A stretch of 64,000 nucleotides of DNA from a virus, in IMG/VR virus record IMGVR_UViG_3300044712_001084, positions 1 through 64,000 of that record. One strand, 5' to 3'. Below are positions 5,986 to 63,837 of the stretch, in pieces (the stretch's first letter is position 1; every line of letters starts with the position of its first letter). Below the pieces are notes generated by a model that was not told the DNA's origin, did no database searches, and was given only the letters and a program-made list of their open reading frames with translations. The translations under genes were made by a program, and so were the position numbers.

Positions 5986-6189
5986 ATGATAGACGTTCAC
6001 ACTCTCCAGCATAAGGCAGCTGTGCTAGACAAGCTCATCGCCAATCTACAAGCTGAGACGCAGCGCGTGAGCGCTAGCGCTAGCAACCCAGTCTCATTAG
6101 CCAGACTGGACGTGGCACTCGATATCCTCGACACTTTAGAGGAAGCGCTAGACAATTTCACCTACACGCCATTCATCGTAGCCAACTAG
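5986..6189 (+). CDS. Hypothetical small helical protein
   Basis: This is 67 residues with heptad-like spacing of hydrophobics (KLIANLQAETQRV, LDVALDILDTLEEAL), so a short helical or coiled-coil protein. It follows the first operon gene after 10 bp with AGAGG before its ATG. Confidence 0.65.
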   Translation: MIDVHTLQHKAAVLDKLIANLQAETQRVSASASNPVSLARLDVALDILDTLEEALDNFTYTPFIVAN

Positions 6190-6199
6190 AGAGGTCAAA

Positions 6200-6580: not shown

Positions 6581-6599
6581 CTAACAGCCTTATAACCAA

Positions 6600-6635
6600 G
6601 ACACCGCTGCCCGGATTGCAGCGGTGTCTTTATTT
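6600..6635. terminator. 11-bp GC-rich terminator, usable both ways
   Basis: GACACCGCTGC (6600-6610) pairs with 6618-6628 and is followed by TTTATTT on the plus strand. It ends the plus-strand operon and would also stop minus-strand transcription from promoter copy 7. Confidence 0.85.
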
Positions 6636-6801
6636 ACTTCAACCAAAGAGCCGTCCAGCGCTACATGCACCACGCGCATTGCTTCAGTTCAGTGTCAGAT
6701 GTCTCAAGTGCCCTTGAGAGGTACGATGGACATACGATCCAATCGCTACGGTATCGTGTACCACTGATCGACAAGTCGCAAACTCTTTAGCCGTCTATAT
6801 T
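6636..6801 (-). ncRNA. Candidate non-coding transcript between promoter copy 7 and terminator
   Basis: Promoter copy 7 points left into about 170 bp that ends at the convergent terminator. Only minute ORFs occur: nine codons, and a 29-codon frame from an ATG at about 6687 with no good ribosome site that reads through the terminator. A ~200-nt RNA, possibly antisense to the end of the plus operon, is inferred. Confidence 0.25.
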
Positions 6802-6813
6802 TACTAAACTTGC
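6802..6813 (-). promoter_or_regulatory. Phage promoter motif (copy 7)
   Basis: An exact GCAAGTTTAGTA at the stop codon of the FkbM gene, pointing away from any clear gene. Confidence 0.5.
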
Positions 6814-7460
6814 TACTGATCCACCCTCCAGTAAATCGAGTTGAGACCATCGCACTGCACCAGCTTATACGGCTTGTCAGCGAACCACTCACGGATAGCC
6901 TTAGCATGGAAGCTGAATGCCTCCACCGGATTGCCGTCATGCGTCTCTACGATTATCATTCTGGGCTTCCAGCGCTCCATACTAGCGCCAGCCAACACCT
7001 TCAGTTCAGCACCCTCTACATCTATGACTAGCACGTCTATGGGCGCACTCACCTCGAATAGATCCAACAACGCGTCTAGCGTGTAGCAGGGTGCCAGCAC
7101 GAAGTTGTCAGCATCGTAAGTGCACCACGGCTGCTTCTCAACCGTCTCCGTGTCAATAGTCGGGTTCTCCGCCATATATAGCTTGACCGTACCCGTCACG
7201 TCACCCACGCAGCAATTGGCCACCATGACATTAGGGTGCTGAGCGTGGTTCATGCGGCATTGCTCAAATAAGGTCTTTACAGGCTCTACATAAAGTCCAG
7301 TCCAGCCAGCCTGGGCCAATCCCCAGGTATTAGACCACGCGTAACCATCATGGGCACCCACTTCGACAAACGTGCCTTCAGTGCAATAACCCAAATACTG
7401 GGCATATATCTCTGCCAGGTTGGCTATCTGGCAAGTGCGCGACATTTCATATTGCGTCAT
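6813..7460 (-). CDS. FkbM-family methyltransferase
   Basis: This is 215 residues. GTFVEVGAHDGYAWSNTWGL is the SAM-binding loop, GLYVEPVKTLFEQC supplies the acidic residue after strand 2, and IDVLVIDVEGAELKVLAGA is the hallmark FkbM strand 4-5 region. FkbM enzymes O-methylate sugars or small molecules. In a phage the target could be a glycan on the virion or a modified base. GAGAGG precedes the ATG; the tagged gene lies 10 bp upstream. Confidence 0.8.
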   Translation of the reverse strand: MTQYEMSRTCQIANLAEIYAQYLGYCTEGTFVEVGAHDGYAWSNTWGLAQAGWTGLYVEPVKTLFEQCRMNHAQHPNVMVANCCVGDVTGTVKLYMAENPTIDTETVEKQPWCTYDADNFVLAPCYTLDALLDLFEVSAPIDVLVIDVEGAELKVLAGASMERWKPRMIIVETHDGNPVEAFSFHAKAIREWFADKPYKLVQCDGLNSIYWRVDQ

Positions 7461-7470: not shown

Positions 7471-7896
7471 CTAGCGTTTGTAAGATCCGTAAGGACCTTT
7501 TGGTTTTACATCGTCTAGCGTCTTCTCTTCATCCGTTATGGTACGTGGACGTATGGTAGGATGACTCTTTGACCAATCTTTGACTATGCTGGATATAGCA
7601 ATATCCAAGGTCGTCACGACCTTATTCAATTTGGATGCCGATGACCCGTAACCAGAAATTTTGAAACCATCTTCTACTTTGGTGATCGAATAACCGTAAG
7701 GTCTCAATTTTGCTTTGCCTACTTCTACATAAGCAGTTCCACCTATAACGTCAATAGTTCCAGTCACATTATCGAATTTAGCCGCTAATGCGGCAGTATC
7801 ATTACTTGGCGCAGAGCCTCCAACCAAACCTGGCCTACCTTCATGACCGAAGTTCCCACTTCCTGATCCACCTTTGAACCGCATAGTCAGTTTCAT
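7471..7896 (-). CDS. Tagged protein with GSGNFGHxGRPG peptide; domain unknown
   Basis: This is 141 residues. Residues ~6-29 are the shared peptide (FKGGSGSGNFGHEGRPGLVG, then GSAPS). The rest is a small strand-rich domain with a GGTAYVEVGKAKL segment and a basic C-terminal tail (PKGPYGSYKR). I do not recognise the domain. The next gene upstream carries the same N-terminal peptide, so they are probably a pair with a shared destination. AGAGAGG precedes the ATG. Confidence 0.7.
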   Translation of the reverse strand: MKLTMRFKGGSGSGNFGHEGRPGLVGGSAPSNDTAALAAKFDNVTGTIDVIGGTAYVEVGKAKLRPYGYSITKVEDGFKISGYGSSASKLNKVVTTLDIAISSIVKDWSKSHPTIRPRTITDEEKTLDDVKPKGPYGSYKR

Positions 7897-7905: not shown

Positions 7906-8613
7906 CTAGCGTACGTTATCCACAAACCAATCTTCAATGGCGCTGGGCATGGGCTCACCCATCACGAAGTTAGCAAACATGTCGCAAAAGGCTTCTTCAT
8001 AAGAGCCGTTATAATTGGCGTAGCCTGACATAGAGCCACGATGCTCCCTCCAGACGTTATCGCGCCACGAGGTCAATACTGGGTTCGTCTCTACACGTCC
8101 TCTGCTACCTCCAGGTAATTTTACGAGGTCTGCGGACTTCACAGAGTTCTGCTTCCACCACAAATGTCCATACTCGTGACTCACGACATGCTTCAGCAGC
8201 GCGTCTCTATCGTTAGCGCCAGAGAACCCAAACCACTCGGCTCTATTGTAAGTGGAACCTGGAGATTTACTTGGTGGGTCATCTAATCTCCATGGCGCAA
8301 TATAGATATAGTTCTTGCCATCAATCCTGGTTGACCGTCCAAATGGATCTGAAGAGCCAGCCGCCACCGCGCCAGAGCTTCCAATGACAATCGCTTCAGG
8401 GTCATCCATAGCAATAGTGGCATGGATATCGGCCACCGCGTCATTGATCAAGGTGTGGTCAGCATCAGATAACGTCTTGCCAGTGGGCTTCTTGCTGACT
8501 GGATCCACGAAAGATATCTGCACGGCTGCGCTACCACCAACCTTGCCTGGTCTACCAGCATGACCAAAGTTGCCGCTTCCCTCTCCACCTTTGAACCTGA
8601 TACTCAACTTCAT
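7906..8613 (-). CDS. Tagged zincin-type metallopeptidase
   Basis: This is 235 residues from the ATG with GAGG upstream. Residues ~7-29 are the shared peptide, and the rest holds HVVSHEYGHLWW, a zincin HExxH motif (His146, Glu147, His150). SYEEAFCDMFANFV about 60 residues later could give the third zinc ligand Glu. The likely role is cleavage of a host or virion protein. Small tagged zincins in phages are often thought to enter the cell with the DNA, but no direct evidence is visible. A terminator lies upstream. Confidence 0.72.
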   Translation of the reverse strand: MKLSIRFKGGEGSGNFGHAGRPGKVGGSAAVQISFVDPVSKKPTGKTLSDADHTLINDAVADIHATIAMDDPEAIVIGSSGAVAAGSSDPFGRSTRIDGKNYIYIAPWRLDDPPSKSPGSTYNRAEWFGFSGANDRDALLKHVVSHEYGHLWWKQNSVKSADLVKLPGGSRGRVETNPVLTSWRDNVWREHRGSMSGYANYNGSYEEAFCDMFANFVMGEPMPSAIEDWFVDNVR

Positions 8614-11738: not shown

Positions 11739-13985
11739 TTAAAATACCATCCCACCGCCCATCGAGGAATTGTCCCAAAAGGCCAAGCAGACAGAGTCCC
11801 CATAGTCAGTGGATCTACCCAGCCGCTCAGATATGTCGTTTTTACTTTCCAGCTTGATTACAGCGTCTTTTTGCATCTCATACTTGGGCGTAGATAGGTC
11901 CAGCACGAGTTCTTCCACCGGAGGGAGCATAACTTCAGAGCCGTATTCTGGATCCAATAGTTCCCGCATATTCCACCACATCGCAGCGCGTACATTTAGG
12001 AAGCGTAACTCCTTGCTACGATCCACCCAGGTCGTTCCACCCGACACCGTTATGGGTCGCAGCAGTGGTACATTGGACTCGTGTAATATATCGTAGAGCG
12101 ATGCGCCAAGCCCTCCATCAGTCTCGATATGCAACTCATAGCCTCTGGAAAGACTCTTGACGTAGCCAGCAAGGGATGTAATTGGAAGCTTCGAAAAGTA
12201 GTACATGTCGGAGATGACCAAGCGTTGTCTCCGTGCGCACACGGTTTTGTCAACCCCAGCACGCGCCACGTCCACGCCCAGGGCACGCTTGCCAGATTGC
12301 GGAGTCCTCCCGTTGGCGTGCCAAGCCTTCCAGCGCTCTGTAGCAGCCCTTATCCACGACAAAGGTATAACACCCTCTTCGCTAGAGTCAGCGAACTCCC
12401 CCAGGACGCGATTGAGGAATATAGAAGAGGACGCGCCCCACTGGCGCTCCCTCTGGCGTACCCACTCGCTAGATATGCGCCCTGCCTTTATGGCTTCATC
12501 CACTGTTACATGTCTAGTCTTCCAATCCTCATACCCTGGCTTATGGGAGTGGATGTCGTAGAATTGGCCTGATGGATCTCCAGGGGTAGATATGGCGAAT
12601 GCGAATGCCTCATCTGTAGTACCATCGTGAACGCTGGCTTCCTGGTTAGAACCCATTGTACCATCGACCTCTCTGGGTTGCTGGGTTTTGCTGGGTAGTG
12701 GGTTAGTATGGGATGCCCTGGTTCCCTGGGTTCCTATGGGTTGCTGGGATATGCTGGTAGCCCTTGGGTTGCTGGATTCCCTGGGTCGTTGGGAAGTATG
12801 GACGCGATGGAGCACGCCAGAGGTGCGTGGACTCGATGGCTCAGGTTGGCTGGGGTGGTGTGGGGCAAAACCCACGTTATCACCCACTTTCGAAGCCACT
12901 CCCTCCCCCAAGCCATCACCCACTCCCTCACCCAAGTTATCCCCCATACCAAACTCCACTCCCTGATCCACGCTTATACCCACTCCCTCCCCCATACTTT
13001 CTAACCCATCCCTAATACCCATCCCTGACATTCCAAGACTGATAGCTGCTGCTCCATCCGTTATTCTTCCACTCTTTACTCTATCCCTAATACTAGCCTC
13101 CCTTACGCTATCCACTCCCTTTACGCTATTGCTTACGATCTCCGAGAATGGACCTCCAATCAAATTTTTCACAACCGCTAGCCCACTCGCATTAGTGGCT
13201 ATACTAGGTGCTGGGTTCAGCTGGACTGCCTCCACAACCACTTTTCCTTTTATACCACCGTTGAATGGTAATCGCGTGATGGCCATCTTACCAGCGTATT
13301 TGCTACCATCCTTTAGCGCTTCCCATCTATCGATATTTGGATCACCCTCTGTGTCCTCGATTGCCATCTTGATATTCTTGGCATTGCTAAATGCGCCCTC
13401 TGCTGCATCCCAAGTCACTCTTGGAATAGCCTTGGCCTCATCGAATATGTATGTTAATCTTCTGGCGTGAGCACCCTCTATCGTATTATGATCGTCAGAT
13501 GCCACTGCGAATGCCTCCACTGTTCCAGATGACAATCGTATGGCTAATGACAAGAACTCTTTGTTGGGATCATATGGCTCTCTACCTATCAATGCCCAAT
13601 CCAAATGCCCAGCCAACTTTCTTATCTCTGGCCATAGGTACTTTTCTAACTGGCGCCATGCACTTGCCGTGGTTATAGTCTTGGCATCTGCCTCTGCTGT
13701 TAGCACTGAATGATGGGTTAGCAATGCTGCCATAAACGTCTTGCCTAATCCATGTGGACCTCTGACTGCCACTCTAGTATAGCCCTCGTCATAATACCCA
13801 AGAATTTCTTCCTGGTAAAATGCTAGCCTCTTGCCTAATGCGCCCAGCATATCGTATGCGAATGCTACCCTGTCTTTAGCATACATGCGCTGGAATTTGC
13901 GGAACTTGCCTGACGTGGATATCTGGGCATGGATAGCCAGCGAGAGGTCTGCTAAGTTGCCTGGTGTGCCAATTGACTGTAACAT
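11739..13985 (-). CDS. terL: Terminase large subunit with low-complexity insertion
   Basis: This is the packaging motor ATPase/nuclease, 748 residues. The Walker A motif is GPHGLGKT (76-83), Walker B is LTYIFDEA (177-184), and the coupling motif lies in FAISTPGDPSGQFYDI (~462-477). The RNase H-like nuclease follows with acidic residues in GVDVARAG, HIETDGG and TDYGDS. Residues ~201-457, between Walker B and the coupling motif, are an insertion not expected in the family. It is rich in Gly, Val, Asp and Ser with repeats such as GEGVGDGLGEGV, and its DNA holds tandem G-rich and C-rich runs. Without it the protein would be ~490 residues, the usual length. No intein borders (Cys/Ser start, HN end) are seen. 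Confidence 0.88.
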   Translation of the reverse strand: MLQSIGTPGNLADLSLAIHAQISTSGKFRKFQRMYAKDRVAFAYDMLGALGKRLAFYQEEILGYYDEGYTRVAVRGPHGLGKTFMAALLTHHSVLTAEADAKTITTASAWRQLEKYLWPEIRKLAGHLDWALIGREPYDPNKEFLSLAIRLSSGTVEAFAVASDDHNTIEGAHARRLTYIFDEAKAIPRVTWDAAEGAFSNAKNIKMAIEDTEGDPNIDRWEALKDGSKYAGKMAITRLPFNGGIKGKVVVEAVQLNPAPSIATNASGLAVVKNLIGGPFSEIVSNSVKGVDSVREASIRDRVKSGRITDGAAAISLGMSGMGIRDGLESMGEGVGISVDQGVEFGMGDNLGEGVGDGLGEGVASKVGDNVGFAPHHPSQPEPSSPRTSGVLHRVHTSQRPRESSNPRATSISQQPIGTQGTRASHTNPLPSKTQQPREVDGTMGSNQEASVHDGTTDEAFAFAISTPGDPSGQFYDIHSHKPGYEDWKTRHVTVDEAIKAGRISSEWVRQRERQWGASSSIFLNRVLGEFADSSEEGVIPLSWIRAATERWKAWHANGRTPQSGKRALGVDVARAGVDKTVCARRQRLVISDMYYFSKLPITSLAGYVKSLSRGYELHIETDGGLGASLYDILHESNVPLLRPITVSGGTTWVDRSKELRFLNVRAAMWWNMRELLDPEYGSEVMLPPVEELVLDLSTPKYEMQKDAVIKLESKNDISERLGRSTDYGDSVCLAFWDNSSMGGGMVF
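12615..13385. repeat. Low-complexity, G/C-run insertion inside terminase gene
   Basis: The plus strand shows repeated GGGTTGCTGGG-like units around 12670-12860 and then CCCACTCCCTC-like units around 12895-13020. Both are unlike the rest of the window. The reading frame stays open throughout. The G-runs could form quadruplexes. Confidence 0.6.
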
Positions 13986-16917: not shown

Positions 16918-18013
16918 CCTTGAGTCTTATTACCTCTTTACGCTCTGAGCCTCCAGCGCGCACGCCAAACTTCATAGAGCCGTCTTTGTAATACACTTTG
17001 ACAATCGTGGCTTTACTCTCGTCAACGACCTCGAACTGGTCGTTGATGTAGATAATCCGCTCAATATCGCTAGCGCTTGCCTCCTTGGCGCTCGTTGGCG
17101 TAGACGGCTGCACTAGAGGATATATAGCATTGATTTGTCGGTATAATTCCTTCCACACATAATCAACCTCGTGCATATGACCGCTATAGTCTAGCCGGGC
17201 AATCTCAGCTAACGTCTCGTTGATAGCCAGTGAGCTATATGGATCAGCCTGATAGTATGACCTGCTATATGCCGTCACACCATCTTTGGTGCGTAATTCC
17301 TCGGCATTATCCTCGATGTAGCGCATAATGACGTAGGATTGGTACTTATTTTCATAATCGGCATTACGCAAATTGCCGTCAGGCTTCATAATATATTCCA
17401 GCCTGGGCACACCTTTATCCATCTGCTCACGCATAATATTATCTATATCATACTTATCACGAGTATACTGCTCACTGAACATTTGCCATTTATCGTGCAT
17501 GACTTCGTGAGCCAGTACAGTCTTGGATATTTGATTATCCTCATTGGTATTATTATTACGTTGGAATGCTTCGTCATATAATCTTATATGCCTATCTATA
17601 GGACTATAATCTCCAGCAGCCTTCCATTTTACGTCACCGACTTGGAAAGGATATCCAACACCCTCGTAAGATATTAGAGCGGCATCATAACCCAAGCGCT
17701 CTGCTAAATGAGGAATTTGATCACGGAATGCCTCAACACGTTCTCTATGCTCTCTAGATAATCGATGTAGCGCAGCACGCTTGGCAGCCGTCTTATCAGC
17801 GAACTTTGGATCAGCTTCAATAGCGGCTGCTCGTAAACCAATGCGCGCATGGCCGCCACCTTTAGCAGAGCCGCCACGCAAGCCTGGTCTGCCTTTATGA
17901 CCGTAATTACCAGAGGTGGGCCCACCTTTGAGTCGGATAACTGACTTGGGTGTATGCAGCCAGTTCTCCCATTCAAAATCATCCAATAAATCTATATCTA
18001 GGTTAGTTGCCAT
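16844..18013 (-). CDS. Tagged zincin-type metallopeptidase with second tag-like C-terminus
   Basis: This is 389 residues. The shared peptide is at ~25-50 (RLKGGPTSGNYGHKGRPGLR, then GGSA), preceded by an acidic 24-residue leader. KTVLAHEVMHDKW gives HExxH (His169, Glu170, His173), and NETLAEIARL about 95 residues later could supply the third zinc ligand. Residues 361-378 repeat the tag start (VIRLKGGKGSG), then drift (FRWHAGRR). The likely role is a virion-carried or cytoplasmic protease. It overlaps the end of the ADP-ribosyltransferase gene, so they are co-expressed. Confidence 0.7.
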   Translation of the reverse strand: MATNLDIDLLDDFEWENWLHTPKSVIRLKGGPTSGNYGHKGRPGLRGGSAKGGGHARIGLRAAAIEADPKFADKTAAKRAALHRLSREHRERVEAFRDQIPHLAERLGYDAALISYEGVGYPFQVGDVKWKAAGDYSPIDRHIRLYDEAFQRNNNTNEDNQISKTVLAHEVMHDKWQMFSEQYTRDKYDIDNIMREQMDKGVPRLEYIMKPDGNLRNADYENKYQSYVIMRYIEDNAEELRTKDGVTAYSRSYYQADPYSSLAINETLAEIARLDYSGHMHEVDYVWKELYRQINAIYPLVQPSTPTSAKEASASDIERIIYINDQFEVVDESKATIVKVYYKDGSMKFGVRAGGSERKEVIRLKGGKGSGFRWHAGRRVQLSNGLYIR

Positions 18014-19532
18014 AATCCCAATCCTCTATATAAAAATCCATAGTATCGTCAGTGTTCAGCGTCACCACCTCTCCAATATCATCTGAAAATGTAATAGGTG
18101 GCGCCACTCCAGCATCTCTGGGCAATATCCATACATCTTCCGCTTTCACAGTTCTAGATAGCACCAATCCAGTCAACCGTCTCGATTTATTACTGGCGAA
18201 TAAGTAGGCTCTACCTCTATTATTAGAGAACGATGATAATCCATAAACTTTAGCAGTCACGTGTTTATCGGCATCTTCTATCGTTATACCAGCCTTCTCC
18301 AGCATAGCGGTGCGTAATTTACCAGCATAACGTCCATTTACACCTCTATACATGACTACTTCTTCGCCATACAACTCTCTGAACAAGGCTTGATTATATT
18401 CCTGCCTAGCCTTGAAACCGGCAATCTGCCTATCCGTCAGTTGGACGTCAATCAAACCTTTAGGTTTATTCTTATTAGTCGTCAACGTGTTTATAGCAGC
18501 CCATTCATTATAAGCGCTGCCTGGCGACATAGTCCAATTTTCTTGCGAACCCATTACAAATAACATAGTTTCACGATCTGTCTTGGACTCTATATATTGC
18601 GCCATAGCGTAATCACGCGTCAGATTGCCTTGCCCTCGAAACACGCGCTGACCCAAATGAAAATATGAAGCTGAATATGAATCACCTCCATAAAACTTAG
18701 CATATTTGCGCTCATTAGCAAGTAGATACTGATGTAAATCCTCGATATATGGGTCATCTTCCGCTAACTGCGTGACTATAGCGCTAGATGGCGCAGAGCC
18801 GCCAACCTTACCAGGACGTCCTGCGTGGTCAAAATTACCGCTGCCTTCTCCACCTTTGAGTCGGATAGCGCCACGCTCTTTCTTCACCTCGCCATTATTA
18901 TACAGGCTCTTTATATAGTCATAGAATTTGCCTGGATTGCTGTAACCCATAGCCTTTATAGCCGTGCGAACAGCTTGCTGCGTGGACACGATACCTGTTT
19001 TGGGTGATAGAGCGTAATCACTGGTATGTAAGCGTAATTGATTCAAACCAAATCTACGCTCCCATTGAAAATACTGGCTGCCACCTCTCGAATAGATCAT
19101 ATAATCAAACTCTGCTTCAGACATCTTCAGCAAAGGCTGTAATTCATTCCATCCGATTAGATTGGCGGCTGGGTGCTCAGCTGCATAACCTTTCAACGCG
19201 TGTAATAGATAGCCCACCGACATCTTATCTTGCGCAGATGCCTTTGGAATATCTGGCCCAGGCTCGTTTATAGAGGCAATAAAATCCTCTCTTGATACAT
19301 CACCCCATACGATATTCTGTATGCGTTTATTGACATGATCCGCATAGCCTCTAATATCAGGCTGCTGAAGTCTGGCGTAAGTGGCAATATTGACGTTCTG
19401 ATCCCAAGCCAAGCGCTGGTCACTTGTAAGAGCCGCATCACCATCGACCACGCTACCACCAACTTGGCCTGGTCTACCAGCGTGACCGAAGTTTCCAGAG
19501 CCTTTACCACCCTTCAATCTAATAACTGCCAT
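18003..19532 (-). CDS. Two-module tagged protein with ADP-ribosyltransferase-like domain
   Basis: This is 509 residues. Tag 1 is at 3-27 and tag 2 at ~222-248, each starting xIRLKGGxGSGNF. The first module (~30-220) is helical and unrecognised. The second ends in an ADP-ribosyltransferase-like domain of the R-S-E type: MYRGVNG (Arg396), GLSSFSNNRGRAYLFASN (Ser433-Phe435), and a Glu in DDIGEVVTL (~488). Such enzymes move ADP-ribose from NAD to proteins, and phages use them to reprogramme host machinery. The EXE/QXE dyad is only partly visible, so activity is uncertain. Two tags suggest two fused tagged genes or a polyprotein. Confidence 0.65.
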   Translation of the reverse strand: MAVIRLKGGKGSGNFGHAGRPGQVGGSVVDGDAALTSDQRLAWDQNVNIATYARLQQPDIRGYADHVNKRIQNIVWGDVSREDFIASINEPGPDIPKASAQDKMSVGYLLHALKGYAAEHPAANLIGWNELQPLLKMSEAEFDYMIYSRGGSQYFQWERRFGLNQLRLHTSDYALSPKTGIVSTQQAVRTAIKAMGYSNPGKFYDYIKSLYNNGEVKKERGAIRLKGGEGSGNFDHAGRPGKVGGSAPSSAIVTQLAEDDPYIEDLHQYLLANERKYAKFYGGDSYSASYFHLGQRVFRGQGNLTRDYAMAQYIESKTDRETMLFVMGSQENWTMSPGSAYNEWAAINTLTTNKNKPKGLIDVQLTDRQIAGFKARQEYNQALFRELYGEEVVMYRGVNGRYAGKLRTAMLEKAGITIEDADKHVTAKVYGLSSFSNNRGRAYLFASNKSRRLTGLVLSRTVKAEDVWILPRDAGVAPPITFSDDIGEVVTLNTDDTMDFYIEDWDYGN

Positions 19533-50829: not shown

Positions 50830-53679
50830 TCACTTGTCGCAAATGTTGTAGATGTATATACCGTGCACGGTCATACGTGTAACACCAGCACGCGTTGCTC
50901 CGGATATGCGTATCATATAATCAAATCCACAGTTATCCGAGTTGTTGCTATCCGGTGCCTTCATATACAACTTATCTGTAACTGGCTTTACATAGCACCA
51001 TGAATACGAGGTCGTGCCATCACTATCACCAAAAGCCAGTAAAAAGTCTGACCATACCGCGCCACCTATAATCTCCACACCAAGAGGGCCAGTTGACACC
51101 CCATCTGTTATGGCAAAGTATAAATATTGCGGTCCTGAGCATCCAGGAAGCGCTGTCCAGTAACCGCTGTAGGACTCCACCTTATATACACTTCCAGGCA
51201 CTAGATTGTCAATCACCATATAAGGGTTATAGTAATTGACGTTCAGTGCAAAATCCGCTAGCACAGCGCCATCAGTGAACTCATATCCAGGTCTGGCCAC
51301 GGCTTGGAACACTAGCGCATCGATGACCTGCGCCTCCGCCAAATTCAAGAACCTTACCACGCGATAGCCGCAACCGTTATTATCCGTGTACAGCGTCACC
51401 GTGCCTGTAGCCACGTTCACGCCATTACGCTGGCCATAAACGCGTATCCAATCCACAGTCTGCGTGGGTTCCCACACGCTGCTCAAGCGCTCGTAAAAGC
51501 ACCCATCAATGATAATATACGTCCATTGACCGTCCAGAACAGAGGATTTGCGTAGCACGACCTCGCATGGCACGGTAATCTGCGTAGAACCATAAGCACT
51601 CTCAGAGAATATATCGAAGCCGCCATGAGAGAATGGACCATTATAGCCTGGATTTATAGCCAAGCTGCACTCGTTGGGCCATACCGTGACTATATTATCA
51701 ACCCACCCATCACCTGGTATCTTGGGAGGCAATATTGATGGCGGCTTGAATGGATTAGGTGGAACCACTGGTAAAGTTGGAGGAAGAACTGGTGGATACG
51801 TGGGATTGGTGGTATTATCGGGAATCTCCGGAACTATGACGGTCACGCCATCCACGCTATCCTCTATAACTGGCTCTAATCCGATTGTGGGCAAAGCCAA
51901 GCCAGCACTCATATCTAATCCGCTATCAACCGTGCGTATCAGATAATCGCCAACCAATCCAACACCTCTAGCAAAATAAGACCCAGGAATATTCAGAGTG
52001 ATAAACTGCTGGGGCACCACGTCCACCGGATAATTACCTGCCAGACCCAGCGACACTTCTTTCACAGTGGATTGTAATATGGCATAGAGCCGTCCAGATA
52101 TGAAATTCAGCTGCTCTTGGCTCTCTAATACCTGGCGCTCCACAGACGCGTGTGAAGATCCAACGGCATCTGGTAAAGTGCCTGGAGCCAATGACATTAT
52201 AGGCAAGTATTTATCCGTGGCATCATCCCAATACACGCCAGACACCGTAATGGATGCCGTGTCATTATCCTCGTTTCTGGAGAATTCCACGCCAGAGTCT
52301 AGCCGTCTATCGGTATCTTCCATTTCAAATAGAGCCAAGCTATCTATGCGCCGCGCATCTGATAATGTATTGTAATCCTCGGTGACATAAACCTGGCCAC
52401 CTTTGTTACAGCATACATGGGCAAATATACCGTATTGGCGCGCAAAATTATCCGGCATAGAGTACAGAGTACCAGTTTCCAGGTCATCGCAAGCTGGTAA
52501 GCGTAAGGTATTATCAGTGGGTAGAAATACATCAGCGATATCCATCAACGTGGAATGCCACTGCCAGAAATAATGAAGCACGCCAGACACGGTCAGAGGC
52601 TCTTTGTACTGATACCAAGTAGTGGGGTCATCCGCTACTTCCTCAACGCTCATGGAATACATATAAAACGAGTCCAGTATGCCGTCCACAGTGACCAATG
52701 ACAAACTAGCCGTATTGTTGGCATCGTCTCTAGAGGATTTATCAGAGCGTATATACCCAGCAAATTTTATATTGCCGCACGCGTCCATGTAATAGGTATC
52801 ACCGTCAAATGTTTCCTCAGTCCATAAGATTATCATGGAGTTGTCTGGTATAACTGACGTAGAAGCATTAGCGCCATGTAGCTGTATAGAGGCTTGCCAG
52901 CCGCCATCATTCCAACTGCCAGCTGGCTTGGACTCTAGTTCGAAGTCCAGTATGGGCGCATGGGTACCAGTCGGCTCGTGGATACGAATAGGTCTGCGCG
53001 TGGTGCGCGTTTTATCATTCGAGTCTGTAACGGTCAGACTCAGCCAATATAAACCCGGCTCTGTAAACGTGATCAGAGTTTGAGCTATATTAGGATTAGT
53101 TATAGTACCACCAGTGCACTCCCAGTAATATCCTGTAATCGTGGCTCCATGAGCTATGGTATAGCTAGCCAACGCGTTCAGCGCCATAGATAGCTGCGTA
53201 CTTCGCAGCATACCCACCTTGGGACAACCCGCTATGGCAACTGGCGGTGGGTACAACGTCTGGTCCAAATACGCTATGTCACGGTCCTTGTAGAACGTAT
53301 AAGCATCAGAGTCATCTATCCAAGGATATATTGGCCACAATTCCCAATAACGATATATGCGCAAACCCATATCCAGACTCCAAACGATATTATTTTCATC
53401 CAGAGTCAGTGTATGGTTATCTATAGAGCGCAATCTGCGCTTGGACACAATAGCGCCAGAAGCTATGTCATAGACCTCTATAGTATTGCCTGGCCTGGCA
53501 TCCGTTATAGAGCCTGACAAATCGCTAACTGTTATGACGCGTGCGCCACGCTCTGGAACGTATAACCCAGTTACATGGCCTGTATAAATTTCCACTGGGG
53601 TGATAGCCGTCATATACAGCTTGACCTTGTGTGGATGCTTACCACGCAAACGCGATAATTGTTGGGCAGTTAGACTCAT
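50830..53679 (-). CDS. Large tail hub / tail-tip protein with PKD-like domain
   Basis: This is 949 residues from an ATGA-coupled start. The N-terminal ~160 residues (VYVPERGARVITVSDLSGSI) look like a hub beta-barrel. Residues ~170-240 form a PKD/Ig-like domain (ITGYYWECTGGTITNP, then GLYWLSLTVTDSNDKTRTTR). A middle region is typical of tail-associated hub proteins (TVDGILDSFYMYS; FISGRLYAILQSTVKEV). A proline-rich linker (~620-660) leads to beta domains likely to face the host. Confidence 0.68.
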   Translation of the reverse strand: MSLTAQQLSRLRGKHPHKVKLYMTAITPVEIYTGHVTGLYVPERGARVITVSDLSGSITDARPGNTIEVYDIASGAIVSKRRLRSIDNHTLTLDENNIVWSLDMGLRIYRYWELWPIYPWIDDSDAYTFYKDRDIAYLDQTLYPPPVAIAGCPKVGMLRSTQLSMALNALASYTIAHGATITGYYWECTGGTITNPNIAQTLITFTEPGLYWLSLTVTDSNDKTRTTRRPIRIHEPTGTHAPILDFELESKPAGSWNDGGWQASIQLHGANASTSVIPDNSMIILWTEETFDGDTYYMDACGNIKFAGYIRSDKSSRDDANNTASLSLVTVDGILDSFYMYSMSVEEVADDPTTWYQYKEPLTVSGVLHYFWQWHSTLMDIADVFLPTDNTLRLPACDDLETGTLYSMPDNFARQYGIFAHVCCNKGGQVYVTEDYNTLSDARRIDSLALFEMEDTDRRLDSGVEFSRNEDNDTASITVSGVYWDDATDKYLPIMSLAPGTLPDAVGSSHASVERQVLESQEQLNFISGRLYAILQSTVKEVSLGLAGNYPVDVVPQQFITLNIPGSYFARGVGLVGDYLIRTVDSGLDMSAGLALPTIGLEPVIEDSVDGVTVIVPEIPDNTTNPTYPPVLPPTLPVVPPNPFKPPSILPPKIPGDGWVDNIVTVWPNECSLAINPGYNGPFSHGGFDIFSESAYGSTQITVPCEVVLRKSSVLDGQWTYIIIDGCFYERLSSVWEPTQTVDWIRVYGQRNGVNVATGTVTLYTDNNGCGYRVVRFLNLAEAQVIDALVFQAVARPGYEFTDGAVLADFALNVNYYNPYMVIDNLVPGSVYKVESYSGYWTALPGCSGPQYLYFAITDGVSTGPLGVEIIGGAVWSDFLLAFGDSDGTTSYSWCYVKPVTDKLYMKAPDSNNSDNCGFDYMIRISGATRAGVTRMTVHGIYIYNICDK

Positions 53680-54116
53680 GATGAAGGATATACCTGGAGA
53701 TTGATAAATCGCAATTGAACCGTCTGCACCACGTAAGGTGACTTGGCCACAGGCATGCCCTCTGGACCGTGAAGCAAGGGCTTCCACATAACGCAACTAT
53801 AGGTGGCAAAGGCATTGCGCGGCAGCGCGTTGGTACCGTCTCGCAAATCGGTATAGATATACACGCTGGCTGATTCTCCACCGTCCAGGTAGGCTAGTAA
53901 ATTGGACAAACGCGCCAAACTTATCATGTCCCATACCCAAAACGCGGTGGCATAGCCGTCTCCAACGCGGCTGTAATCAGCCCGCATGTAGAATGCGCTA
54001 GCTGGCTGGAATATAACCTGATCTGGTACAGCTACACCTAGATCACGCAAACGCGCCATTGACCCAGCACTTCTTCCTATCTTATAATCGGTATCAAGCA
54101 CGTATCGATTTGCCAT
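53676..54116 (-). CDS. Distal tail / small tail protein
   Basis: This is 146 residues from the ATG with AAAGGG upstream. Strand-rich (FWVWDMISLARLSNLLAYLD; VVQTVQLRFINLQVYPSS). Its place between the tape measure and hub genes is that of a distal tail protein. It overlaps both neighbours, so translation is coupled. Confidence 0.6.
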   Translation of the reverse strand: MANRYVLDTDYKIGRSAGSMARLRDLGVAVPDQVIFQPASAFYMRADYSRVGDGYATAFWVWDMISLARLSNLLAYLDGGESASVYIYTDLRDGTNALPRNAFATYSCVMWKPLLHGPEGMPVAKSPYVVQTVQLRFINLQVYPSS

Positions 54117-56643
54117 TGCGTGCCCTTTCAATCTCATACAAAGTATTCAAAACCACGCGCTGAATGTAGGGTTCCATTTGTGGCGCATCTAGCTTTACAG
54201 TAATATCTACCGCTTCGCGATTAGAGCCGCCAACTGATGGCACTCTAGCTGGCGATGGAGGCATTGACCCCAGGGCAGATGCGGTCATAGTCGTTGGCGT
54301 AAGCATAGAGGATACTAAACCAGCTTGGCCTATTTTACCGTCATTGTCATAATCCCTGTTATCGCGTATCTCCTGATCATGGAGGTCTTCGGTCACGCTG
54401 CTGCCAGCCTCTCCACCTCCAGGATTAGATATAATCTCATCAGAGCCGCCAGACGTTCCACCTCCGGACATACCGCTATAATAAGAGTTTATAGCCTCAC
54501 CCAACGCTTTGAAATAGCCACCCCAGTCATCGAGTAAAGTCTGTAAACCCTCTCTGGTGACGGCATCCATTCCAGCAAATTGCTTCACCATATCATCCAG
54601 CATCTTGCGCGTCTGACGATCACGATCTTCCTGCGCCCACTGGTCGTGTAATTCCTTTAGCTGGCGCTGTCTATCCAGATTGCGCTGATATGACTCCAAT
54701 TCCTTTACGCGTGCCTCTTCTGCCTTGGCCAGCTGCTCCTGCATGGTGGCATTGATCTGCTCCATAGCCTTGTCAAAATTCTCTTGAGCTTTTTTACGGC
54801 TGTCTTCATAGGTCTTCTTCTCTTGCTCAAGCTGGCGCTTGTTACTGCGAATAAGAGCCAGTAAACCCACGGCATCACGTCTGCGCGCTAGCTCGCTAGC
54901 GTTGAAGTTGAATTCCTCTTGGATTTGCTGTAAGCGCTTACGATAATCCTCTTCTGCGTTCAGCCGTGCCTCGTTTGCCTGCTCCAGCAAATGAGTCTTG
55001 GAGTCCTCGCTGCCTTCCATAATCTGACGTATGCGCTCAGCGTGGGTGCGGGCCATATCTTCCTTGGCCCACTGACCTCGCAGTTCTTCCTCTATCGCAT
55101 CGCGTTGGGCTTTGATCTGGCGCTCCAACGCGTCATCCTCCATACTCTCTTTCATTTGTTTCAGCTTAGCATTGGCTAATGACAATGCGTCAGCCAATTT
55201 ATTGGCCTGTATCTCAGCGTATTTGCTGGTAGCCTCTCCTGCATTCTCTGTAGCCGTCTCGTTCTCTTTGATCAACTCGGTGGACTCTCGAACTGATTCA
55301 TTGAACCAATCCTGAACCTGCTGCCATTTATCCACTTTGAATGTATCTGATATGGCATCCCTGGCTTGCATAGCCTCTGCTATAGTGTTAGCGTTTATGG
55401 AAGATGGATCCAAAGGATTTATAGACGCGGCAGCCTTGACAATCGTAAGCAAATTCAAGCCTATTTGAACACCCTGCTCCCAGGCTTTGAATAAAGCTGT
55501 AAATCCAGCGCGCACGAGGATGACAGACTTGGTAGCCGTGTCTAATATACCTGCCACGTCAGTCAAACTGTCTAGAAAATCTGACATGGCCTGTGGATTA
55601 GTCGATAACAATTCAAACAATTGCGATATCGACTGCCAAGCCATATCTCCTACGCTGGCTATCTGACTCATGGCTTGTTTTATCGTATCCAATAATATAG
55701 ATATCAAATCTCCGGCAGACGCAGCAGTAGCCTCCAACTCACTTTGGTGAGCCTTCAAAAAGTCCAGGATATCTGCCAGCAATTCTTTATAAGTGGTAAC
55801 ACCTTGAAGATAGCCAGCCTGGAATAGGCCACCAAAAATCATACTAATTTCTTCTTGATAACGCGGCAACGAGGTCAACTGCTTACCCACGGTACCCATA
55901 GCTGCCTCGTAAGTTCCTGCTATGACTTGACCTTGCCGCAAGACCTCGTTGAGCGCCACCTGCTTGCGCTCAGTGTAAGTCAACTGCTCAGCCGTCTTGC
56001 CAACCGTGGCAGCATAACGCGTATAAGCGCTCTGGAGGTCCACGGTGATATTCATATTACGTAATATCTCTGGCTGGAGAGTGACAATTGCGCTGGTAAT
56101 TCTCTCGAATGCCTGGGCACTCGTGATGCCAGCGTTTACAGCCGCGTCTTGCGATACACGCGCCAGATCAGAAGCCTTGCTTAGATCCAATTCACTTTGG
56201 GCCATTTGAATCAGCGCGTCTCTAGTCTGCTGCGTGGTAATTCCTCTGCTCTTTACCGACTCTTCGAACGCCGCCAACTGATCAGCCGTATAGCCAGCAT
56301 TGCGGCCAGCAATATTGAGGGATACGCCCAACGTGTCTACCCTGGCTCGCAAATCCGCTGATGACTTGGCAAAATTGAAGAATGCGTCCACACCAGCTTC
56401 GGCCATTTCTACCAGTTTCATAGTCAAGCCACCGATAATACCGCCAACCATACCCATCTTCAAGCCAGCATTATCTACACTTTCTTCCACACCCTTGAAA
56501 CCGTTGGACGTTCTGCGCTCCATATTATCCAGACGGTCATCAAAATCCTCGAAGAACTTGTATGTCTGATCCTCTATAGAGGCTCTGAATAGCAAATCTC
56601 CGGCATCTGGTACGGCTGGGATATCATGCGATGTTCTGGCCAT
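54094..56643 (-). CDS. Tail tape measure protein
   Basis: This is 849 residues. A hydrophobic/helical segment (MGMVGGIIGGLTMKLVEMAE), long amphipathic helices, and a heavy coiled coil at ~480-700 (QLAKAEEARVKELESYQRNL). ASDLARVSQDAAVNAGITSA and the FAKSSADLRARVDTLGVSLN region are typical of tape measures. Its length sets tail length: about 850 residues would give a tail of roughly 125-130 nm by the usual 0.15 nm per residue. Confidence 0.85.
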   Translation of the reverse strand: MARTSHDIPAVPDAGDLLFRASIEDQTYKFFEDFDDRLDNMERRTSNGFKGVEESVDNAGLKMGMVGGIIGGLTMKLVEMAEAGVDAFFNFAKSSADLRARVDTLGVSLNIAGRNAGYTADQLAAFEESVKSRGITTQQTRDALIQMAQSELDLSKASDLARVSQDAAVNAGITSAQAFERITSAIVTLQPEILRNMNITVDLQSAYTRYAATVGKTAEQLTYTERKQVALNEVLRQGQVIAGTYEAAMGTVGKQLTSLPRYQEEISMIFGGLFQAGYLQGVTTYKELLADILDFLKAHQSELEATAASAGDLISILLDTIKQAMSQIASVGDMAWQSISQLFELLSTNPQAMSDFLDSLTDVAGILDTATKSVILVRAGFTALFKAWEQGVQIGLNLLTIVKAAASINPLDPSSINANTIAEAMQARDAISDTFKVDKWQQVQDWFNESVRESTELIKENETATENAGEATSKYAEIQANKLADALSLANAKLKQMKESMEDDALERQIKAQRDAIEEELRGQWAKEDMARTHAERIRQIMEGSEDSKTHLLEQANEARLNAEEDYRKRLQQIQEEFNFNASELARRRDAVGLLALIRSNKRQLEQEKKTYEDSRKKAQENFDKAMEQINATMQEQLAKAEEARVKELESYQRNLDRQRQLKELHDQWAQEDRDRQTRKMLDDMVKQFAGMDAVTREGLQTLLDDWGGYFKALGEAINSYYSGMSGGGTSGGSDEIISNPGGGEAGSSVTEDLHDQEIRDNRDYDNDGKIGQAGLVSSMLTPTTMTASALGSMPPSPARVPSVGGSNREAVDITVKLDAPQMEPYIQRVVLNTLYEIERARNGKSIRA

Positions 56644-57512: not shown

Positions 57513-59006
57513 TTAGATCAAACCGACTACCCTGGAGTTGGTGCGCGTAAGGAAGCCATAAGAGCCTTGCGGAGCACCACTCACCCACACCGTATTGTCA
57601 TCCACCAGGTACATGGAGCTCAAGCCAGAGTTGGCAGGAATGTTGAGGTTCCATAACCGGAATGATGCGCCACCATCGATGGACCGCAACACCTTGCCGC
57701 CAGCAGCCGTGGTCACAGCCACGTAAATGTTGGAGTCACCGGAGTTGACAATCTTTACCACAGCGGTGGGCACGACACCCTGCAGCGGCAGAGCATCCCA
57801 CTCACTGTCGCGCACAGATCCAAATACCTGACCAGCGTTATCGCCAACGAACACCGTACCATCCGGAGTGACGCATACGCAAGTCAAGTCTTCGCTGATA
57901 GTGCCTGGGCCTGTCAGAGCCGTCCAGCTTGTACCACCATCCTCGGATTTGACAATCAGATTGGAATTACCCACCGCATACACGGTGCCATCTGACAAAC
58001 CAGCAATGGCGTTGATATCCACCGCGCCAGCGCTGTAGGCAGCCGTCCAGCTAGCGCCACCGTCAATGGATTTATAGACATAGCCATCATCCGTGCTGGC
58101 ATAAACGTGCGCCCAGTCGATGAACAGCAAATCCTTGATATACTGGCCATCAACCGCGCCAACGTCCACCTTCACCCAAGTTGCCTGGCCCATGGACGTA
58201 ATATCAGCATAAGCGATTTGCGCAGGGTCAGAGGGACGCGTGGTACCGTTGGACACGATAACGCGGTGACTATCTCTACGACCAACGACCACTATGGCGC
58301 TGATTGTCATGGAGGCATCGAATGGCGTGGTAGAGGTCTGCGTCCATGTCTCACCGCTATCATCCGTGTACCATACCTGGGCGATGTTACCAGCAGAGCC
58401 ACCCAGCAAGCCTGAGCACAGATAGCCGTTCTCACCCACATCTTCCTGGGTGCGGAAGTCGGTCTGGCACTCGCCATTCATGAACGCGATGCCAGTAATA
58501 GCCTCTGTCTCAGCAATCGTGCGCGCTGATAAGAACCTGGTTAGCATGTCGTAAATGGCCATGGGCTCTTCCGACACGAAGGGTGTCTGGACACCCACAG
58601 ACGCGTTATCACCCTCAATCTTGGACAAACGATCTACGCCCAGGTCACCACGCCGCGCACGCTCAAAGTGCACCACGACCTCGGAGGTGTACTGATTATC
58701 GGCTCTGTCGCACGCTCCCAGATGACCCTGGATATTGACAATGCGGTTCTTGAGGCCCATCATATAGTTCTGCGTGCGCTTCATGCGCGTCTCCAGCGTA
58801 AATGAGGGCAACGCTGGCTCACCAGTCACGATATCCGATATCACCGACATACCGCGCTGGGCAGGGTCCGGCTCACGAACAGCGTTCAGAGCACCCACCG
58901 GGTCAGTGATGTTTGTCAGGCCATAGGGCAGAAGCAGCTCAAACGGCTGGAACTTTCTGAGCTGGATCCATACACGGCCATCCCCAACTTTATAACTTGT
59001 TGCCAT
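57513..59006 (-). CDS. Tail tube protein with C-terminal beta-propeller
   Basis: This is 497 residues with AGGAGG before the ATG. The N-terminal ~160 residues fit a tail tube protein by position and a beta-rich layout (FTLETRMKRTQNYMMGLKNR). Residues ~185-497 are a BNR/Asp-box beta-propeller: WYTDDSGETWTQ, VYKSIDGGASWTA, IVKSEDGGTSWTA and VLRSIDGGASFRL are four S/T-x-D-x-G-x-x-W/F boxes. Such propellers are in sialidases and Ycf48-like proteins. On the tube they would be displayed along the tail surface. Confidence 0.72.
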   Translation of the reverse strand: MATSYKVGDGRVWIQLRKFQPFELLLPYGLTNITDPVGALNAVREPDPAQRGMSVISDIVTGEPALPSFTLETRMKRTQNYMMGLKNRIVNIQGHLGACDRADNQYTSEVVVHFERARRGDLGVDRLSKIEGDNASVGVQTPFVSEEPMAIYDMLTRFLSARTIAETEAITGIAFMNGECQTDFRTQEDVGENGYLCSGLLGGSAGNIAQVWYTDDSGETWTQTSTTPFDASMTISAIVVVGRRDSHRVIVSNGTTRPSDPAQIAYADITSMGQATWVKVDVGAVDGQYIKDLLFIDWAHVYASTDDGYVYKSIDGGASWTAAYSAGAVDINAIAGLSDGTVYAVGNSNLIVKSEDGGTSWTALTGPGTISEDLTCVCVTPDGTVFVGDNAGQVFGSVRDSEWDALPLQGVVPTAVVKIVNSGDSNIYVAVTTAAGGKVLRSIDGGASFRLWNLNIPANSGLSSMYLVDDNTVWVSGAPQGSYGFLTRTNSRVVGLI

Positions 59007-60614: not shown

Positions 60615-60929
60615 CTATGTAAACCGATAGAACAAACCAATGAACGCCACGCACCATAGCCATATATAAAATACTGACCACCATACCAGGCCACCTAGCG
60701 CCACAAACGCCAGAGCGATGACGGCAGATACCCACGTACCCAGGCACCAATGACAATCGAATAGCTTGGCGAAGAAGTTCACTGGTATATACTCGGCATC
60801 GTATCTGCATAGCATCATGCGCAAACGCCCAAAGATATCCCACGGTCCTTCCAAATCCTTGAGCATAACCAGCATCGTAAATGACACTGGAGCGCATACT
60901 AGACAAGCCAACGCGATATTGGCAATCAT
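60615..60929 (-). CDS. DUF1360-like membrane protein
   Basis: This is 104 residues. FAKLFDCHWCLGTWVSAVIA matches the 'F.C..C...W' core of DUF1360, a small membrane family of phages and spores. Two or three hydrophobic helices. It starts by ATGA overlap with the glycosyltransferase gene. Function unknown. Confidence 0.65.
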   Translation of the reverse strand: MIANIALACLVCAPVSFTMLVMLKDLEGPWDIFGRLRMMLCRYDAEYIPVNFFAKLFDCHWCLGTWVSAVIALAFVALGGLVWWSVFYIWLWCVAFIGLFYRFT

Positions 60930-62152
60930 CTGGTCTTGCCTTTCAGCCAGTTCACGACCTTGGCGCGATTGCGGCCACGCAACTCATTACGCAGCAGTAA
61001 TCTAGCGATGTCTGGAGTGAGATTATCCAGCATCATAATCTGGTCTACAGACATGGTGGCAATATCGGGCACGTCATCTTCAACTGGCTTGCGTACCACC
61101 TCTCGTACCACGGCTGTGCGAGTGACCGCTTCCTCGACAACTTGCGGTGGAGGCTCAACCACTACAATAGGCTCTGGCGTGGGAGCGCTGGCTGACCGCA
61201 CGACTCGCACAAAATACGTAGGCTTGGGTTCGTTGATCTGTCTAGCGTCAGATGGATCTACGTACAGATAATCCCCATAAGTCACCTTATGGGCCATGCC
61301 AGTCGTAATGCCATTGTAATAATGGCGGCCACGACCTTTACCACCCACGTACTGAACCAGCACCTTACCATCAGGCATGGTCAACGCCATAGAATTTACA
61401 TCCACAGTCGTTGGAATGGGCTGATTAGCCGCTACCAGCGCAGCCGCTGCGCGTCTTTTTCCACTGCACGAAGGACAAGCCATGTCGATATCTCCTATCA
61501 ATTGAAGTACACGCCGCGCATATTGCGCAGAACGTTGCTTATAACTTTTGGTGCGCTGGTGCTCGTGCATGCGATATTCCACCAGAGGATGTGGGCAGCG
61601 CACCGCGCAATAGCGTAAAAACAATCTAGCGTTATATTCACCATCTTCGTAAAAGTCCAAATCCTCTCGATAGCCACCCACAGCATTGAATTGAGTTTTG
61701 CTGTACAGCACATTTACGCTAGAGAAACCAACGTGCTTATATACGAGAGAACAATCAAAATCCAGTAAATGATAATGCTCAGTCACCTCTGCGCCAAACT
61801 TAGCTACATCTGGATATACTGGAACACCTGTCCAATAGGTTAGTAAAGTGCTGATTGCCTCTGGCTTCAACCTATCATCGCAATCCAAGGGCAACACTAA
61901 CGAGGTCTTGGCCACGCTTATGGCACGATTGCGGGCACTAGCCACGCCCACGTGATTGCCGTAAATTATAGAGCCGTCTAGATTATATTTACTGACGACC
62001 TTGCGTGGAGACAACGGTGATCCATCATCATATAGCGCTACAGAACAACCTTGCGTAGTAGCGCTAGCTAGACATTCATCTAACCACTCCATAGATTGCG
62101 CGTGACTGCAATATACTGGAATGATAATCGTCACATCTTCAGGCTTATTCAT
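60926..62152 (-). CDS. GT2 glycosyltransferase fused to a small Cys-containing domain
   Basis: This is 408 residues. Residues ~1-220 are a GT-A fold: TIIIPVYCSHAQSMEWLDEC, YDDGSPLSP, VASARNRAIS, and LPLDCDDRLK (DxD-like). After ~225 comes CPSCSGKRRAAAALV, a beta segment (VLVQYVGGKGRGRHYYNGIT), a linker and a helical end (DNLTPDIARLLLRNELRGRN). The C-terminal domain looks like small phage adaptor proteins. The fusion may fix the sugar-transfer activity to the virion or to an assembly intermediate. Confidence 0.72.
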   Translation of the reverse strand: MNKPEDVTIIIPVYCSHAQSMEWLDECLASATTQGCSVALYDDGSPLSPRKVVSKYNLDGSIIYGNHVGVASARNRAISVAKTSLVLPLDCDDRLKPEAISTLLTYWTGVPVYPDVAKFGAEVTEHYHLLDFDCSLVYKHVGFSSVNVLYSKTQFNAVGGYREDLDFYEDGEYNARLFLRYCAVRCPHPLVEYRMHEHQRTKSYKQRSAQYARRVLQLIGDIDMACPSCSGKRRAAAALVAANQPIPTTVDVNSMALTMPDGKVLVQYVGGKGRGRHYYNGITTGMAHKVTYGDYLYVDPSDARQINEPKPTYFVRVVRSASAPTPEPIVVVEPPPQVVEEAVTRTAVVREVVRKPVEDDVPDIATMSVDQIMMLDNLTPDIARLLLRNELRGRNRAKVVNWLKGKTR

Positions 62153-63837
62153 TTATCCTCGCCAAGCATGTGACGTAATTCCTTTACACGCTGGTCAAAT
62201 GAACAATTAGCCAAGACAAAATCCTGACCTCGTTTTGCTATGGCTTGGCGTTCCACGTCTCTAGCTAACCAATGCCGAATGAGGTCCGGCAACTCAGCCG
62301 TCTCTTTATAAGTGACGTAGTGCTCACCCTCTTTCATACCCAGCATGTACTCTATCTTAGGAAACCATTGCTGTAACGTGAAGCAACCCGCTGCCATGGA
62401 TTGGAATATGCGATTGGATACAAAATTTGTAGAGGGACGACCATCAGATATGGCAATCTTAGCTGCCTTATACAGTCTGCAGCCAGCATCATAATCGTAT
62501 AAATTGCGGCCATTAGACGGTATACTGGAAGGCCATGATCCATAAATACCCACGTTCACGCCGCGCATAGAGCGTAAGGTACGACCTAATTCCACCCTGA
62601 ATGGATAGTGGCCATTACCAAGAAACAGTACGTCATGCCTGGGTGTTTTATTGATAGGCTCTGCGTTCGACACCTCGTAACCTATTTGCCAGTAGGCCCA
62701 AGGTATATTGGCCACGTTATAATCTGTAGCCACGTCCACCGTGACAAACGTGGCCAAATCGAAGCGCTTCATCATTTCCATATACGGCTTGGCCAGAAAA
62801 TTTTGTGGAAAATAATCCCCATTCCAGTTCACTAGCTTAGCGTGCTTGGGGCACACCTCTCGTAATAAATGAACCGTCTCACGACCGTATAACGAGGTGT
62901 CATGGATCTGCGTCAATACCAGGTCAGGCTGCCAACCGCTAGCCGCGTCCAGTAAACCGTCTGGGTCAGCTAAGTAATCGAATTCATAAACATGATAATA
63001 ACGGCTCAGCGCTTCGCGCAAACCACGCTTGGTTACGCGCTGTATGGCACTCCACTGCTCGTATATGGGAGCATATAATAAACGAGGTTTGTGGATACGA
63101 GGTTCATCCACTATAGGCTTGGGTGCTACGTTAGGACCCAATAAACCATCTCTGGTCCACCTTTCTCGCCACGCTGTACTATCTGGGTGGCCAGTGGAAG
63201 GATGATAATCCACAGCACCCATATTGATCTTACGCAACTCATCAGCCGCTACAAAATCTTGGATACACGCGCACGGAACTGGTTGGATCTTATAACCTAG
63301 CTCGTATACACGGCAACTCAATTCGTTATCACCCGCATAGGTGTGGTATAAATCACCCCACCAACCCACGTAATCACCTAGCCAACGAGGCACTATGCAT
63401 ACCTGGCCATAAGGTCCATGGGATTGCTTACCGTCCACGACAATCGGCATATGCTCTACGTGCCACTCTTTTCCACCTCTATCCTGATAAAAGCATCCAA
63501 TGCCAACGTCTGGATTATCTTCCATGAACACGAAGGCATTGCGCAAGGTATCACCCACGAAGGCAATGTCATCGTTGGCGATAATTACATACTGACCTCT
63601 AGCCTCTTCAAAACCTGCTTGGAATGCCTTTACCGCGCCAACCAGTTTACCCTGCTCTATCAAGCGAATATCGGATTGCCGTTTACACCAGTCAATCGTG
63701 CCATCCTTGCTGCCACCGTCCACCAGCACTATCTCATACGGTAAACCAACGCCAATAGAGGCTCGCACGCTGTATACCATATTTTTCAGATATCCCAGCC
63801 GATTATAAGTGCCTGACACGATTGATAATTGCTTCAT
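62149..63837 (-). CDS. Bifunctional glycosyltransferase (GT2 plus CgeB-like)
   Basis: This is 562 residues. Residues 1-~230 are GT2: SIVSGTYNRLGYLKNMVYSV, VDGGSKDGTIDWC, ANDDIAF, GDNELSCRV. Residues ~270-562 are a GT-B/CgeB-like domain with VLFLGNGHYPFRVELGRTLR, then YKAAKIAISDGRPSTNFVSN and MAAGCFTLQQWF. Two activities in one chain suggest adding two sugars in sequence. The target may be a virion protein or a modified base. Confidence 0.78.
   Translation of the reverse strand: MKQLSIVSGTYNRLGYLKNMVYSVRASIGVGLPYEIVLVDGGSKDGTIDWCKRQSDIRLIEQGKLVGAVKAFQAGFEEARGQYVIIANDDIAFVGDTLRNAFVFMEDNPDVGIGCFYQDRGGKEWHVEHMPIVVDGKQSHGPYGQVCIVPRWLGDYVGWWGDLYHTYAGDNELSCRVYELGYKIQPVPCACIQDFVAADELRKINMGAVDYHPSTGHPDSTAWRERWTRDGLLGPNVAPKPIVDEPRIHKPRLLYAPIYEQWSAIQRVTKRGLREALSRYYHVYEFDYLADPDGLLDAASGWQPDLVLTQIHDTSLYGRETVHLLREVCPKHAKLVNWNGDYFPQNFLAKPYMEMMKRFDLATFVTVDVATDYNVANIPWAYWQIGYEVSNAEPINKTPRHDVLFLGNGHYPFRVELGRTLRSMRGVNVGIYGSWPSSIPSNGRNLYDYDAGCRLYKAAKIAISDGRPSTNFVSNRIFQSMAAGCFTLQQWFPKIEYMLGMKEGEHYVTYKETAELPDLIRHWLARDVERQAIAKRGQDFVLANCSFDQRVKELRHMLGEDK

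Follow-up and report, generated by a model that had tools for sequence, protein, structure and literature searches.

A predicted tail tube protein carrying a seven-bladed Asp-box propeller in a family of uncultured phages

Decorated tail tubes and the gene at 57513-59006

In the reviews of phage tail tubes consulted here, the C-terminal domains listed as pointing outward from the tube are exclusively Ig-like, and their function is described as unclear (PMC8718954, PMC9022992). Lambda gpV, T5 pb6 and YSD1_22 each join a tube domain, in frame and in every subunit, to an outward C-terminal domain (PMC8718954, PMC9022992). The protein described here has the same tube fold and is built likewise; their extra domain, however, is an Ig fold of ~90 residues, against a propeller of ~340 residues in our case. 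Large tube extensions, proposed to touch host carbohydrate, are also found in SPP1 gp17.1* and in TpeX of the 936 phages (PMC8718954, PMC6669499), and the extended 936 proteins measure 470-530 aa (PMC6669499). In these systems a programmed frameshift extends part of the subunits, whereas our gene is a continuous open reading frame, and the extensions consist of FN3 or BppA-type carbohydrate-binding modules rather than of propellers (PMC8718954, PMC6669499). The receptor-binding protein of Staphylococcus phage phi11 does place a propeller on a phage tail, but that protein is part of the host-recognition device at the end of the tail and does not belong to the tube shaft (PMC4901313). Our literature search, incomplete in coverage, returned no case in which a tail tube bears a propeller or BNR repeat. 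Outward Ig-like domains are common and longer 936 extensions are known, but a propeller on the tube was not found before within the literature searched. An initial sequence-only reading of this locus had called a whole propeller on a tube unusual, in agreement with the reviews (PMC8718954, PMC9022992).

The window analyzed here is a stretch of 64,000 nucleotides that forms part of a 74,005-base IMG/VR virus record (Table 1). The open reading frame previously read at 57513-59006 stands with exactly these coordinates and lies on the minus strand, where the earlier reading had named none; it begins with ATG, is preceded by AGGAGG, and runs unbroken, without a frameshift, for 497 aa. The order of genes on the minus strand is: two glycosyltransferase-like genes, a 342-aa adaptor-like gene, a 186-aa completion-like gene, the tube-propeller gene, a 213-aa chaperone candidate, an 849-aa tape measure gene, and tail-tip candidates. 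This is the tube position first proposed, between a tail-completion-like gene and the chaperone and tape-measure genes. The adaptor, completion and chaperone genes gave no family-model match, and we assume these names from position and general resemblance, the 186-aa protein presumably being akin to HK97 gp10-like proteins. The sheath family searched, PF04984, was not found in the record; a contractile tail was therefore set aside, and the tail is most likely non-contractile.

Table 1. Positions of the tail genes, domains and motifs in the window, and of tandem genes in two relatives.
Feature	Position	Strand	Basis or remark
Tail tube protein with C-terminal propeller	57513..59006	-	497 aa
Tail tube domain, residues 1-152	58551..59006	-	Isolated model matches tail tubes
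Seven-bladed Asp-box propeller, residues about 155-493	57528..58544	-	Predicted; Ycf48 match and seven-bladed-ring matches
Asp box TDDSGETW, residues 214-221	58344..58367	-	
Asp box SIDGGASW, residues 313-320	58047..58070	-	
Asp box SEDGGTSW, residues 354-361	57924..57947	-	
Asp box SIDGGASF, residues 442-449	57660..57683	-	
Most conserved stretch of the propeller, residues 226-289	58140..58331	-	Loop 1-2, blade 2, loop 2-3
Head-tail adaptor candidate, 342 aa	59574..60602	-	Position; kept in relatives; no family match
Tail-completion-like protein, 186 aa	59017..59577	-	Upstream neighbour, kept in relatives; no PHROG/Pfam match
Tail assembly chaperone candidate, 213 aa	56835..57476	-	Position and overlapping ORF; same layout in relatives
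Second chaperone ORF, 81 aa	56651..56896	-	Overlaps the 213-aa candidate in another frame
Tape measure protein, 849 aa	54094..56643	-	PHROG tape measure matches
153-aa protein past the tape measure, tail tip candidate	53676..54137	-	Position only; similar gene in L057
Tail tip candidate, 988 aa, PKD domain	50830..53796	-	Position in tail genes; PKD domain
Tandem tube-propeller genes, L041	5392-6849 and 6877-8331		
Tandem tube-propeller genes, L042	5392-6840 and 6866-8320		

Predicted folds of the two domains

We counted strict Asp boxes ([ST]xDxGxx[WF]) against a background of 5000 shuffles of the same protein. The window protein has 4, at residues 214, 313, 354 and 442, the number noted earlier, while the shuffles average 0.03 and none has more than 2. 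Relatives have up to six, at matching positions, and the six box positions are conserved family-wide. The window protein scores just under the cut-offs of Pfam PSII_BNR, Sortilin and BNR, and its matches to BNR and glycosylhydrolase-named models are all below cut-off; PSII_BNR is matched by 18 of 22 relatives (best 2e-20). A sequence search of the PDB with the window protein returned designed Cake propellers and Ycf48.

Structure prediction, which the sequence-only reading had suggested as a check, yields a tube fold (residues 1-152) followed by a seven-bladed propeller. The full-length AlphaFold2 model, built from 22 sequences, has a pLDDT of 82 and a pTM of 0.83; its best Foldseek matches in the PDB are Ycf48 propellers (E 2e-12), and VIA aligns it to seven-bladed WD40 rings (Z 29, rmsd 2.8 over about 304 residues). 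By Foldseek and VIA, the modelled C-terminal domain is a propeller instead of an Ig-like fold, and in the model residues ~155-493 are a complete seven-bladed Asp-box propeller. The closest solved Asp-box propeller, by Foldseek and Pfam PSII_BNR, is the seven-bladed photosystem II assembly factor Ycf48/HCF136, which differs in having no tube domain and in occurring in photosynthetic cells as a free lipoprotein or a lumenal protein; no functional link is implied.

The tube domain was modelled separately from the first 195 residues alone, giving block pLDDT values mostly of 73-90 up to residue 120 and low values past 155. The PDB matches listed by Foldseek for this model are tail tubes, tube caps and Hcp-type proteins, among them those of AFP, PVC, cyanophage A-1(L), 80alpha, lambda (gpV) and T4 (gp19). 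VIA gave a Z of 11.3 (rmsd 2.8 over 137 residues), with values of 10.4 for lambda, 10.1 for GTA and 9.5 for SPP1, and the named matches in BFVD are mostly tail tube, tube-tip and tail-completion proteins. Sequence and profile searches of Pfam, PHROG and the PDB with 28 tube domains produced no match to a known tube family. As modelled, the fold of residues 1-152 is that of a tail tube. A border near residue 195 was considered and dropped, both models placing it near 152. Tube alignments stop near residue 154 and several propeller alignments start near 152; the domains therefore abut, almost free of a linker. From the strand order of the model, residues 157-163 would form the outer strand of blade 7, with blade 1 starting at 170. 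The propeller read earlier is indeed C-terminal, but its size is ~340 residues (~155-493) and not ~300, because the strand closing blade 7 seems to be located right after the tube domain.

A tube-like fold is also found in tube caps, tube initiators and completion proteins. The protein could accordingly be a minor component, confined to one tail end as a cap, terminator or initiator, with another protein forming the bulk of the tube, and two relatives (L041, L042) do have two tandem paralogues, as this would allow. However, the tube-propeller gene is the only candidate between the completion gene and the chaperone, both in the window and in most relatives, and the small gene found just before it in many relatives has no counterpart at that place in the window. 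We regard a minor role as very improbable. The union of tube and propeller in one polypeptide, as first read, is well supported by fold, by gene order and by its recurrence in ~30 phages.

One residue deserves separate mention: a cysteine at residue 180 (window 58465-58470) is invariant across the core family and in many members belongs to a C..C-x-G-D-C-G cluster; the blade 1 loop that holds it is modelled with low confidence, and a disulfide or a metal site is possible.

Relatives, split genes and tandem genes

We found relatives in 31 other IMG/VR contigs, a few of them near-identical to one another, and one further relative, with a complete module, on a 5-kb contig (L058) of a Chloroflexi MAG. 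Tube and propeller are nearly always fused and occupy the same gene slot. Identity to the window protein in the alignment falls from 57% to about 16-19%, and complete fused members are 482-526 aa long, each a single continuous open reading frame. The closest relatives, L004 and L057, belong to phages that share the window's major capsid protein at 63-68% identity. The order of neighbouring genes is the same in the loci read, with the exception of L037, where other genes separate the tube gene from the tape measure; the L037 protein (5320-6870) combines a strongly diverged N-terminal domain with the same kind of propeller.

Named phages gave no match to the window protein or to its relatives L009 and L014. 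With L006 as query, a weak match confined to the propeller was found in a 636-kb record, and the sole named-phage match to the tube domain alone was judged to be chance. A first pattern scan of cellular genomes found no match; a second found L058, along with a sortilin-like protein of a Gemmatimonadetes MAG that proved unrelated. In 400 Chloroflexota genomes, the full-length protein occurs only in the MAG already found, the other matches listed being to the propeller only. Binning of a 5-kb phage contig is weak evidence, which makes Chloroflexota only a lead to the host. For annotation, the tube-propeller gene offers a recognisable tail module in uncultured, possibly Chloroflexi, phages that are absent from collections of named phages.

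In two relatives, L033 and L034, tube and propeller are encoded by separate adjacent genes, the N-terminal part being a gene of its own, as expected of a self-standing tube unit. A scan with these split tubes for tube-only relatives returned nothing beyond the known loci. In L033 the tube gene stops at TAA, followed by the Shine-Dalgarno-like AAGTGAGGTG, and a separate stop codon stands in the propeller frame two codons upstream of its ATG, so that no single frameshift or sequencing indel can join the two genes. In L034 the open frames overlap briefly, and it is possible that a frameshift joins the parts. Both split members are nested among fused members in the two (unrooted) domain trees, which suggests that the split is secondary. 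The break aligns with residues 206/207 (L033) and about 167 (L034) of the window protein, that is, inside the propeller. In the model, the tube polypeptide thus apparently keeps the presumed closing strand of blade 7 in both, and in L033 presumably strands one and two of blade 1 as well. On this reading, it would take strand complementation on the tube to complete the propeller. A more specific picture follows, which we offer as an unlikely but concrete one: the coat would be an ordered lattice on the tube, and in L033 and L034 it would be delivered in trans, the separate propeller docking by strand complementation with the ring-closing strand or strands supplied by the tube.

Nothing was found in favour of the idea that the propeller is cleaved off after translation and not retained on tails, beyond these same two relatives, in which tube and propeller are made as separate proteins. 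Against this, the fused domains abut without a long linker, and in the split relatives the apparent ring-closing strand of the propeller stays with the tube part. We consider cleavage very improbable.

L041 and L042 carry two fused genes in tandem (Table 1), the copies being about 37-40% identical; L045 looks the same as L041. The two copies possibly make a mixed tube or a specialised end ring, and one of them may be a minor tube protein in these phages.

Conservation and the proposed propeller coat

Distances between tube domains and between propellers are correlated at 0.84 (0/5000 permutations); tube and propeller therefore travel together, without swapping. Across 276 pairs of fused members, the tube averages 33% identity and the propeller 36%. 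Among the closest pairs, however, the propeller is in most cases the more divergent domain, and a simple argument that the propeller is more conserved and hence not receptor-binding was rejected as too simple, the order reversing in these pairs. Resolved by blade, close pairs average 69% identity in blade 2 and 65% in blade 3, compared with 63% in the tube and 49-55% in the remaining blades. Outside the Asp boxes, conserved residues lie in loops 1-2 and 2-3 and in blade 2 (PF, RGTTDAGNPAEIAYSDD, NGQY). In the standard propeller topology, loops 1-2 and 2-3 are on one face. No hypervariable propeller face was seen in the family comparison. As judged from sequence, the conserved patch and the lack of swapping would favour at least one constant contact, and the conservation of blades 2-3, with neither a hypervariable face nor swapping, appears to fit such a contact at least as well as host-specific adhesion.

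Taken together, we consider it quite probable that the protein is the major tube protein of a long, probably non-contractile tail, in which outward propellers would form a coat of ~190 copies. In this arrangement, residues 1-152 would stack as hexameric rings around the tape measure, and the propeller would presumably sit on the outside of the tube with almost no linker. Because the frame is continuous, each tube subunit should carry a propeller, giving six per ring, and with no frameshift to control dosage the coat is probably complete. At the usual 1.5 Å of tail length per tape-measure residue, the 849-aa tape measure corresponds to a tail of about 127 nm, which would hold about 32 rings and hence 190 propellers; this makes the "some hundreds of copies" of the earlier reading plausible. 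We infer both the copy number and the presence of the protein in the virion. A propeller is roughly 50 Å wide and 40 Å thick. Given a ring rise of ~40 Å (38-43 Å in known tubes, PMC9022992), propellers of this size could form a near-continuous coat. A complete propeller per subunit, kept in about thirty diverse uncultured phages, would be a new kind of tail surface.

This leaves the question of what such a coat would do. In our proposal, the conserved blades 1-3 would make one fixed contact, either inside the coat itself or with a ligand that all hosts share, and the faster-evolving blades 4-7 would be free for weak contact with the cell surface. We judge this proposed job about as likely to be right as wrong. 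A related possibility, the one raised in the sequence-only reading, keeps the same anatomy and makes the coat an adhesin: the propellers would bind cell-surface sugars weakly and many at once, so that the phage stays on the host, or moves over it, before the tail tip engages, by analogy with the proposals for SPP1 gp17.1* and 936-phage TpeX. Decorated tubes have been proposed as binders of cell-wall carbohydrate (PMC8718954), the 936 extensions bear carbohydrate-binding modules (PMC6669499), and most blades are less conserved than the tube in close pairs; yet blades 2-3 exceed the tube even there, no face is hypervariable, and the propeller is inherited with the tube and not swapped. We found no sugar site in the sequence and structure analysis, and glycan binding by the propeller is a guess from sequence. 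An adhesin coat is quite possible, with our judgement leaning somewhat against it. We view with rather more doubt a third possibility, a structural brace, in which adjacent propellers would be in contact along the conserved face of blades 1-3, making the tube stiffer or shielding it, like the inserted domain 2 of YSD1. The conserved patch on one face, the linker-free junction, the co-inheritance of the two domains and the lack of frameshift dosage control in the window all agree with a brace, but a propeller made as a separate protein in two relatives does not. For the wider question of what tail coats do, the tube-propeller family is a clean system, open to direct tests through the split-gene relatives and the conserved face.

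Three further features of the record were noted. The two glycosyltransferase-like genes (window 60926-63837, minus strand) lie between the head and tail genes, and a pair is found at the same place in L003, L004 and L080; through them the phage may modify sugars of the virion or of the host. The terminase large subunit (748 aa; window 11739-13985, minus strand) has ~200 low-complexity, repeat-like residues between its ATPase and nuclease parts. Finally, several open reading frames of the window that otherwise differ contain, internally or close to their start, a 21-residue motif, KGGxGSGNFGHxGRPGxVGGS (7813-7875, 8530-8592, 17867-17929, 18795-18857 and 19452-19514, all minus strand). The motif is also found at L002 14667-14729 and in the relatives L003 and L057, and could be a common tag or a processing signal.
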